From: Thermococcus barossii
GTDB taxonomy: Archaea; Methanobacteriota_B; Thermococci; Thermococcales; Thermococcaceae
DNA length: 64,000 bases
Assembly (NCBI RefSeq): GCF_002214465.1
Contig: NZ_CP015101.1
Coordinates: forward strand, 875,013 to 939,012
Direction of reading: 5' to 3'
A model generated the notes under the pieces. That model ran no database searches and was not told the DNA's origin. It saw nothing but the letters and a program-made list of their open reading frames with translations. Below are positions 35,101 through 37,008 of this stretch, one piece after another. Every line of letters starts with the position of its first letter. Positions within the stretch are counted from its first letter, which is position 1. The translations under genes were made by a program, and so were the position numbers.

Positions 35101-35403
35101 TCATAGTTCGACCTTTATTCCCGTCTCCTCTTCAACCTCGTCAAAACCTTCCTTCATGTACTTGCCGAGCTCTTCATCAACTTCAAGGAGCGCCGCGAAG
35201 AACTCCCCAACGTGCTCCTTCTCCTCGTTGGCGACGTCGTAGAAGATGTGCTTTATCCTCTCATCTTCAACAAGCTCGGCCAGCTGCTCGTAGAAGCTTA
35301 TGGCGTCGAGCTCGGCCTCAATTGCCCAGCGGAGGGCCTGAGAAATTTCCCTCTTTGAGAGGGGCTTCTCCCGTCCGATAAGGTAGGGTTTTTCGGCGAG
35401 CAT
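35101..35403 (-). CDS. Encapsulated-ferritin-like (EncFtn) protein
   Basis: A 100-residue protein strikingly similar in pattern to the N-terminal domain of P. furiosus encapsulin (ALRWAIEAELDAISFYEQLAELVEDERIKHIF, then ANEEKEHVGEFFAALL). The glutamates and E-x2-H build the ferroxidase site of EncFtn, which needs dimerisation across subunits. Here it is a stand-alone protein with no encapsulin shell domain fused and no encapsulin gene in view, and the tail (EEETGIKVEL) lacks a recognisable targeting peptide. It may oxidise iron in free form or load a shell encoded elsewhere. Confidence 0.8.
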   Translation of the reverse strand: MLAEKPYLIGREKPLSKREISQALRWAIEAELDAISFYEQLAELVEDERIKHIFYDVANEEKEHVGEFFAALLEVDEELGKYMKEGFDEVEEETGIKVEL

Positions 35404-35445: not shown

Positions 35446-35997
35446 TCACCTCAGGAATTTCGACACAAAGGGGCTCTCCCCCGGTTTGGCCAGTCTGAAG
35501 TGGCCGCTCGGTTTGCCGGTGAGGAGCTCCTCAAACCAGGCCTCGTGCTCTATCTCCTCATGAAGGATTGCCAGGGCCAGGTCGTAGGTCCTCGGGTCTT
35601 TTCCGAAGGTGTATTTGCATATCTCGGTGTAAACACCGACCGCACAGCGTTCCGCCTCCAGGAGAACCTTCAGGATGTTTTCGACCGTTGGCTCCTCCGG
35701 CAGGTAGGCGTCACGGCACCATGCCATCTTTGAGAAATCGACGATATCCTTTGGAAGCTCCCCGCCGAGTTCGTATATCCTCGGAACGAGGGCCTCAAAA
35801 TGGTTCCTGTCCTCAAGGCGGGCATCCTCAACTATCTCCTTTATAGTCTCGCCCTCCATCCCAGCGGCGTGGTTTCTCAGGACAGTGTAGTAGTAATAGG
35901 TCGTAAACTCCGCGGCTGCAGCTTTCAGCAGCATGTTCAGGAGTTTCTCAACGTCTATTCCGGCCTTCTCAACGAGTCTTCGGTTGTGTTCAGACAT
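35446..35997 (-). CDS. dpsl: Dps-like (DPSL) thioferritin
   Basis: A 183-residue protein of the DPSL class, 12-mer cages that protect DNA by oxidising iron with peroxide and that carry a bacterioferritin-like diiron site plus a nearby cysteine pair. Recognisable are [62 protein letters not shown], the [11 protein letters not shown] region and [25 protein letters not shown] (cysteines of the thioferritin site). Very close to the P. furiosus protein. ATG 35997 (MSEHNRRL) is chosen on GGTGA spacing. Divergent from the fur-like gene. Confidence 0.92.
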
Positions 35998-36039
35998 AGT
36001 TTTCACCATAGACCGTTGGCATTTCTACTTAATAAAGCT

Positions 36040-36068
36040 TTCTATTTAGAAGTTGTTTCTAATTAGAA
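36040..36068. promoter_or_regulatory. Fur/PerR-like operators between dpsl and fur-like gene
   Basis: Two 12-base elements, TTCTATTTAGAA (36040-36051, one mismatch from symmetry) and the perfect palindrome TTCTAATTAGAA (36057-36068), lie back to back between the divergent dpsl and regulator genes. The first is next to the dpsl TATA (CTTTATTAAG, minus strand), the second touches the TATA of the regulator gene (ACTTATAAG, 36070-36078). A repressor binding here would control both genes. Confidence 0.7.
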
Positions 36069-36100
36069 AAACTTATAAGTTCATCCGCTTACGTTAAATC

Positions 36101-36478
36101 ATGTGGAAGGAAAAGGCCATCAGACGGCTCAAGGAGAGTGGCTACAAGCTCACGCCTCAGCGGCTCAAACTGGTGGAGATACTGGAGAGAATGGGTGATG
36201 AGCATCCCTCGCTCAAGGACGTTCTTGGTGAAATCAAGGTCGAATTCCCCACCATGAGCTTTTCCACCCTCTACTCCAACGTCCTGACGCTGAAAGAGCT
36301 CGGACTGCTCGAACTTTTCTCGCTGGACGGGGAGACAAGGTTGGAGCTCAACACTGAGCCGCATATCAACCTGATAAGCGGGGGCAAAGTTATCGACCTC
36401 AACGACCCGGAGATAATCGAAAGGATAAGGAAAAAGATCGGTCGGAATGTCAAGCTCGTCAACGTTATCCTCGATTAG
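36101..36478 (+). CDS. Fur/PerR-family regulator, short form
   Basis: A 125-residue winged-helix regulator with the Fur N-terminal domain (GYKLTPQRLKLVEILERMGDEHPSL, then TMSFSTLYSNVLTLKELGLL). The dimer/metal domain is short: it keeps EPHINLISGGKVIDLNDP, where a His corresponds to the regulatory metal site, but there is no cysteine, so the structural zinc site of classical Fur/PerR is absent. It likely senses iron or peroxide and represses dpsl and its own gene through the palindromes upstream. Confidence 0.85.
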   Translation: MWKEKAIRRLKESGYKLTPQRLKLVEILERMGDEHPSLKDVLGEIKVEFPTMSFSTLYSNVLTLKELGLLELFSLDGETRLELNTEPHINLISGGKVIDLNDPEIIERIRKKIGRNVKLVNVILD

Positions 36479-36954
36479 TCCACCTCCAGGCTGAAATCCT
36501 GGTAGTCCATCCAGATGCCGGTCTTCATGACGGAATCATACTGGGCCTTCAAAAGCTCGTAGTGGGCCTTCTCTATTCTTGCCAGCTCCTCAAACACGCG
36601 CTTAACGTCATCGTGCTCCGCCTCCCTAGCGGCCTTCTCGTAAAACTCCCATGTCTTTTTCTCCTGCCCCATACCTATTCTCACTGCGTCCACTTCACTC
36701 AGATTTCTTTCATCGGCCTTCACAAGAAGACTCTCAAGGGCAACCAAGTCAACTGCGGGGAGTTCGCATTTCTCTATGAGCTTCTCGACGAACTTTTCCT
36801 CGAACAGCTCCCAGTGGTCGGCCTCCTCCCTCGCGAGGAAGAGGAACATCCTCCTCGCCCTATTGTCCTCGGCCTTCTTGGCCAGCCTTATGTAGAACTT
36901 CAATTCGGCCTTCTCAACCTCAAGGGCCAAGGCCAAAGCCTCAAGCTCGTTCAT
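36475..36954 (-). CDS. Ferritin-like protein, 159 residues
   Basis: A 159-residue four-helix protein with two halves carrying E..E-x2-H motifs: EKAELKFYIRLAKKAE and EEADHWELFEEKF in the first, MGQEKKTWEFYEKAA and ARIEKAHYELLKAQYD in the second. This resembles a rubrerythrin lacking the rubredoxin domain (sulerythrin-like). ATG 36954 (MNELEALALA) follows GGTGATGTT; the frame extends further but past the promoter. It shares its promoter region with the divergent GNAT gene. Role likely peroxide or iron handling. Confidence 0.7.
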   Translation of the reverse strand: MNELEALALALEVEKAELKFYIRLAKKAEDNRARRMFLFLAREEADHWELFEEKFVEKLIEKCELPAVDLVALESLLVKADERNLSEVDAVRIGMGQEKKTWEFYEKAAREAEHDDVKRVFEELARIEKAHYELLKAQYDSVMKTGIWMDYQDFSLEVD

Positions 36955-37008
36955 AACATCACCAAAAAACTTTAGGAACTCGGGCATAATAACCTTTGGT
37001 GGACAGGG

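Follow-up and report, generated by a model that had tools for sequence, protein, structure and literature searches.

A paired palindrome between the divergent dps and fur genes of Thermococcus barossii is a predicted operator of a cysteine-free Fur-family protein

Genes and promoters at the dps/fur locus

The window, which is the whole 64-kb stretch of Thermococcus barossii DNA that was analyzed, contains a pair of divergent genes separated by a 103-bp intergenic region. On the minus strand is a dps-like (DPSL) gene at 35446 to 35997, with a long open reading frame start at 36009. Its product matches NCBIfam Arch_DPS (E = 4.5e-89), and the closest structure is PDB 7stw, a solved DNA-protection protein (E = 3.1e-109). 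Translation most likely begins at 35997 (MSEHN...) and not at 36009, since the 7stw chain matches the long open reading frame only from its residue 5 onward and a GGTGA ribosome site lies upstream of 35997. On the plus strand, a fur-like gene at 36101 to 36478 encodes a 125-amino-acid protein of the Fur family (Pfam PF01475, E = 1.8e-22) that is the putative cognate regulator. Downstream of dps on the minus strand lies an EncB/EncFtn-like, encapsulin-cargo-like ferritin-fold gene at 35101 to 35403 (NCBIfam EncB_fam, E = 1.1e-17, which is below the curated cutoff of that model). This gene adjoins dps in nearly all of the loci, and it may be cotranscribed with dps or may have its own promoter. 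Converging on fur is a minus-strand gene of the ferritin/rubrerythrin fold at 36475 to 36957 (Pfam PF02915, E = 5.2e-14), the positional counterpart of archaeoferritin PF1196 in the Pyrococcus furiosus cluster of PF1193 (Dps), PF1195 (Fur), and PF1196 (PMC3401498). More generally, genes of the ferritin/rubrerythrin fold are densely clustered between 29037 and 42050 of the window (30215, 32825, 34531, 35101, 35446, 36475, and 41688), and a superoxide reductase gene (30973) and an FAD/NADH oxidoreductase gene (29037) lie within that cluster.

Promoter elements were placed from the sequence and from general knowledge of archaeal promoters. The dps promoter (36029 to 36044, minus strand) has a BRE (GAAAG) and a TATA box, TTTATTAAG, at about 36037 to 36029 with its center near 36034; columns 36030 to 36035 of the TATA box are invariant. 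The fur promoter (36064 to 36079, plus strand) has a BRE (GAAAAAC) and a TATA box (TTATAAG), seen as CTTATAAG at 36072 to 36079 with its center near 36075, and here columns 36073 to 36078 are invariant. The center of the TATA box is about 26 nucleotides from the fur ATG, and thus the fur transcript is probably leaderless.

Two palindromes overlap the two BREs

Between the divergent genes lie two 12-base palindromes, TTCTATTTAGAA at 36040 to 36051 and TTCTAATTAGAA at 36057 to 36068, to which no strand is assigned and which are 17 bases apart from start to start. The first-pass annotation had reported both, with one TATA box beside each, and all of these elements were found exactly in place. The GAAAG-like BREs directly upstream of each TATA box are the outer arms of the palindromes, with the left arm of palindrome 1 overlapping the dps BRE and the right arm of palindrome 2 overlapping the fur BRE. 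Because of this coincidence, the same half-sites can be read alternatively as one inverted repeat in the center of the element, TTAGAA-N5-TTCTAA at 36046 to 36062, flanked by two ordinary BREs. The exact sequence TTCTA-N2-TAGAA (TTCTANNTAGAA) occurs twice in the 1.92-Mb genome, and both copies are at the dps/fur promoter. When the 103-bp intergenic region was shuffled 100,000 times with dinucleotide composition preserved, 9 of the shuffled sequences contained two nonoverlapping 5-2-5 palindromes with an identical half-site, and the 64-kb window contains no second pair of this kind besides that at 36040 to 36068.

Conservation of the element in Thermococcales

The comparison set consisted of 94 Thermococcales genomes, the relatives fetched by name being Thermococcus. 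The fur-like gene was matched in 42 genomes and dps in 41, every one of which also had a fur match. Both genes therefore co-occur in 41 genomes, a broken fur stands alone in 1, and dps stands alone in none. The order was divergent in all 30 of the loci first examined. Loss of the motif in front of the dps/fur pairs of relatives had been set beforehand as a result that would count against a shared operator, and the motif was found there in 40 of the 41 dps-bearing genomes, with the length and spacing of the two-site element identical throughout. The element was absent from all genomes among the 94 that lack dps.

A 31-bp core at 36039 to 36069 (TTTCTATTTAGAARTTATTTCTAATTAGRAA) had the same length in 40 of 40 aligned intergenic regions, which include several near-duplicate genomes and so do not represent 40 independent events. 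In all 40 genomes, site 1 differed from TTCTANNTAGAA by 0 or 1 mismatch, and site 2 carried 0 to 3 mismatches. Mean pairwise identity was 0.93 for palindrome 1 and 0.85 for palindrome 2, with 0.64 for the 5-bp linker between them and 0.67 and 0.42 for the leaders on either side. The conservation of the outer arms, which coincide with BRE sequence, may come partly from the promoters alone. An operator profile of 57 positions detected the element in 40 genomes at E < 1e-7, always at the dps/fur locus, and the best match elsewhere had an E value of 4e-4; the profile was trained on these same loci, and its informative part is the absence of the element elsewhere.

The Fur-like protein and its putative metal site

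Membership in the Fur superfamily is clear from a Pfam FUR score of 80.2 bits versus a gathering cutoff of 23.1. The best matches in the PDB were 6dk4, 2fe3, and 4i7h, in that order; the second and third are PerR chains, and the first, filed as a ferric uptake regulator, is presumably the PerR of Campylobacter jejuni. The PerR equivalog was the best-scoring NCBIfam model, yet at 53.7 bits it fell well short of its cutoff of 180, and the NCBIfam Irr models scored far below theirs. An AlphaFold model built from 3 sequences was set aside as evidence, since its mean pLDDT was 59.6 and its metal-binding half scored below 50.

The T. barossii protein was correctly described at the outset as cysteine-less, and 37 of 38 orthologs also have no cysteine, with a single Cys at position 34 in the remaining one. 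Having no cysteine, the protein lacks the two CXXC motifs of the PerR Zn(Cys)4 site, and the structural zinc site is missing. The first-pass annotation had argued from this that sensing must occur through His/Asp/Glu. The loss of the structural zinc site stands, but the argument itself does not follow, since the cysteines of Fur and PerR serve to bind the structural zinc, and the regulatory site is made of His/Asp/Glu in any case (PMC4866751).

The regulatory ligands of PerR are listed as His37, Asp85, His91, His93, and Asp104 (PMC4866751), and those of the Bacillus subtilis protein (PDB 2fe3) align with His35, Glu82, His88, Asn90, and Asp99 of the T. barossii protein. All five aligned residues are invariant in 38 of 38 orthologs, and this points to a functional metal site. 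Glutamate in place of Asp85 is tolerated in Bacillus licheniformis BL00950, and Asp104 in PerR has been linked to peroxide reactivity, with Fur having a Glu there (PMC4866751). By this measure, the invariant Asp99 is of the PerR type and not that of an iron-responsive Fur. The PerR set of five ligands is nonetheless incomplete, His93 being replaced by the invariant Asn90, and we know of no PerR ligand set with an Asn at that position. Both of the histidines known to be oxidized in B. subtilis PerR are retained. The earlier suggestion of a PerR acting by metal-catalyzed oxidation is thus compatible with the oxidizable histidines and the PerR-type Asp but not matched by the full ligand set, and PerR chemistry is possible for this protein. 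A DNA-contacting segment, FPT-SFSTLYSN, is likewise invariant in the 38 orthologs, matching the invariant operator, and the invariance of metal-ligand and DNA-contact positions together indicates that the fur gene is under selection.

Distant Fur homologs in another family of the same class contain cysteines and have a ZIP-type transporter gene as their neighbor, not dps. Read by eye, these are Zur/Fur-like and were rejected as members of the same system.

Comparison with known regulators

Bacterial PerR of the B. subtilis type, which controls peroxide-defense genes and itself, resembles the Thermococcus protein in its Fur fold, with PerR chains among the best PDB matches, in the conserved equivalents of His37, His91, and Asp104, in having a predicted dps-family target, and in probable autoregulation. 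The Thermococcus protein differs in lacking cysteines and the structural zinc site, in the changes of His93 to Asn and Asp85 to Glu, and in having a single promoter target. The operators differ as well, the Thermococcus one being an even 5-2-5 palindrome, TTCTA-N2-TAGAA, whereas the Per box is of the 7-1-7 type. The rhizobial Irr box, TTTAGAA-N3-TTCTAAA, belongs to a regulator that senses heme. Its half-site, TTAGAA/TTCTAA, is identical to that of the central reading of the Thermococcus element, but the spacer is 3 rather than 5, and the Irr model scores give no sequence evidence that the Thermococcus protein is an Irr.

With bacterial Fur, the protein shares the Pfam FUR domain, a Glu where PerR has Asp85, and a predicted local iron storage target. 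It differs in having Asp99 where Fur has a Glu at the Asp104 position (PMC4866751). The repeated operators of an iron-uptake regulon were also not seen, since the motif is exact at the dps/fur promoter only and has no other copy in the T. barossii genome. Iron uptake in Thermococcales has been attributed to DtxR (PMC12827226).

Decay of the module and the cryptic Fur of Thermococcus kodakarensis

The dps gene, the fur gene, and the operator decay together as a module. In the genome where a broken fur stands alone (G041), fur is a pseudogene and both dps and the operator are gone, and another genome (G080) retains only a fusion of the ends of the two genes. Two genomes with a broken dps (G069 and G077) have kept the operator. 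In G023 (locus L034), which we take to be probably T. kodakarensis, fur is frameshifted and split and the dps leader carries a deletion, and the operator is intact. The dps leader at this locus is about 25 bases shorter between TATA box and ribosome site than the leaders of relatives, and dps expression may also be altered by this. In T. kodakarensis, fur carries the annotation TK1057/TK1058 and lies next to TK1059, a Dps-family gene (PMC12827226). Its Fur was reported to be "cryptic" and to play no global part in the response to iron (Louvel 2009, as cited in PMC12827226). The frameshift in T. kodakarensis may be recent. The loci of T. kodakarensis and P. furiosus (PF1193/PF1195/PF1196) are instances of this gene cluster from within the same archaeal order, and, by contrast with TK1057/TK1058, fur is intact in T. 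barossii and 37 other genomes. No description of an operator was found in the accessible literature on the T. kodakarensis Fur and the PF1193-PF1196 cluster. The "cryptic" Fur of Thermococcales thus gains a concrete and conserved candidate target and a short list of species with an intact fur.

Proposed function and alternative readings

The best reading of an element that is kept before the dps/fur pairs of relatives is the one proposed by the first-pass annotation, an operator shared by the two genes and used by the neighboring Fur-family regulator. We assign a probability of about 0.6 to the palindromes being the operator of the divergent cysteine-free protein, which would corepress dps and its own gene by blocking the BREs. 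The anatomy of the element, its conservation, its exclusivity to the dps/fur promoter, and its co-occurrence with the two genes are all observed, and from them we infer that the 36101 protein binds there, that it represses and does not activate, and what it senses. A metal-loaded dimer would occupy each palindrome, or two dimers would cooperate on the four TTCTA half-sites. Because the outer arms are the BREs, a dimer on palindrome 1 would cover the dps BRE and block TFB there, and one on palindrome 2 would do the same at fur, such that TFB/TBP entry would be prevented and the two genes repressed together. Altered metal loading, or oxidation of the His/Glu/His/Asp site by peroxide, would then lead to release and to induction of dps for iron storage and DNA protection. 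The system is of an ordinary kind, local autoregulated control by a Fur-family protein, with unusual details. If true, it would represent a Fur-family regulator working without a structural zinc site, with a changed ligand set, and at very high temperature. A more far-reaching proposal is that a PerR-like His-Glu-His-Asn-Asp sensor free of cysteine and structural zinc is the iron/peroxide switch of these strictly anaerobic hyperthermophilic archaea, acting at the dps/fur promoter alone by way of a double operator that overlaps the BREs and would close both divergent promoters at once. We regard that proposal as tentative and rather doubtful.

A different reading of the same bases is one central operator, TTAGAA-N5-TTCTAA, with the outer TTTC/GAAA arms serving as BREs only and mimicking two palindromes. 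A GAAAG-type sequence directly before the TATA box is the usual BRE and is found in unrelated promoters of these genomes, the inner half-sites are conserved beyond what BRE and TATA box need, and the central repeat is also exact and unique in the T. barossii genome. Against this, the TA at 36043 to 36044 and at 36064 to 36065 is about 95% conserved though outside the BRE core. One divergent genome (L039) carries a paired change in palindrome 2, from TTTCT..AGAAA to TTTCG..CGAAA, that is symmetric about palindrome 2 and not about the center of the element, and palindrome 2 with a TATA box occurs in isolation before another gene in two genomes. The conserved TA and the paired change favor two dimer sites, and we consider a single central operator unlikely.

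Less probable still are two readings in which the Fur-like protein is not the repressor. Another, housekeeping transcription factor might bind the sites, with the Fur-like protein unrelated or vestigial, and the operators that persist beside the frameshifted fur of T. kodakarensis and the broken dps of G069 and G077 are in keeping with this. However, the element is restricted to genomes with the fur/dps pair and to that one promoter, and the selection seen on the metal-ligand and DNA-contact positions of 38 orthologs would not fit a vestigial protein. It is similarly improbable that the regulator is an activator that, from beside the BRE, recruits TFB/TBP to either promoter or to both. Activators in archaea may also have their sites adjacent to the BRE, and some, such as TFB-RF1, recruit TFB at promoters with a weak BRE (PMC5937170), but here the palindromes overlap the BREs rather than lying upstream, and both BREs (GAAAG and GAAAAAC) look strong. 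Repression is also the main mode of action of the Fur and PerR proteins characterized so far.

Search for further targets

The first-pass annotation had also suggested that the motif could be used to find a regulon, an expectation that failed, as neither the genome scan nor the profile search over relatives gave a target beyond the dps/fur promoter. Allowing one mismatch to TTCTAWTTAGAA in the genome scan added one site, around the TATA box of an unrelated gene, and a repeated match to TTATATTTAGAA was rejected as an extra target on proving to be the TATA region of a conserved but unrelated gene. Within the 64-kb window, no copy of the motif was present at the rubrerythrin (30215) or superoxide reductase (30973) gene. 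Exact patterns, one-mismatch patterns, and the 57-position profile revealed no other conserved target in the 94 genomes. A tRNA promoter match (L082) was judged to be due to chance.

A further site is a clean palindrome 2 with a TATA box, which in G074 and G081 (L118 and L119) precedes a gene encoding a small membrane protein, the promoter lying about 40 bases before the match. In G077 this copy is degraded and the membrane protein gene is broken too, and the copy is missing from other genus members, the fur-bearing G075 among them. If it is an additional target at all, it is one specific to that lineage. The regulator is best regarded as a switch that acts locally, on its own promoter and on dps and perhaps also on the downstream ferritin-like gene.

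A divergent peroxiredoxin/rubrerythrin promoter in one genome (L083, E = 0.003) was discarded, the match being unconserved in about 36 other peroxiredoxin promoters of relatives. Most of those promoters carry a different palindrome, TTAGG-N4-CCTAA, which is kept just downstream of the TATA box before L099 and about 30 other peroxiredoxin (BCP) genes (L089 to L117), in genomes with and without fur alike. It looks like a putative operator of some other regulator, and no exact copy is present in the 64-kb window. In several related genomes (L121 to L127), the gene for the small membrane protein has TTACTAT...ATAGTAA-like repeats on either side of its TATA box, possibly another operator.
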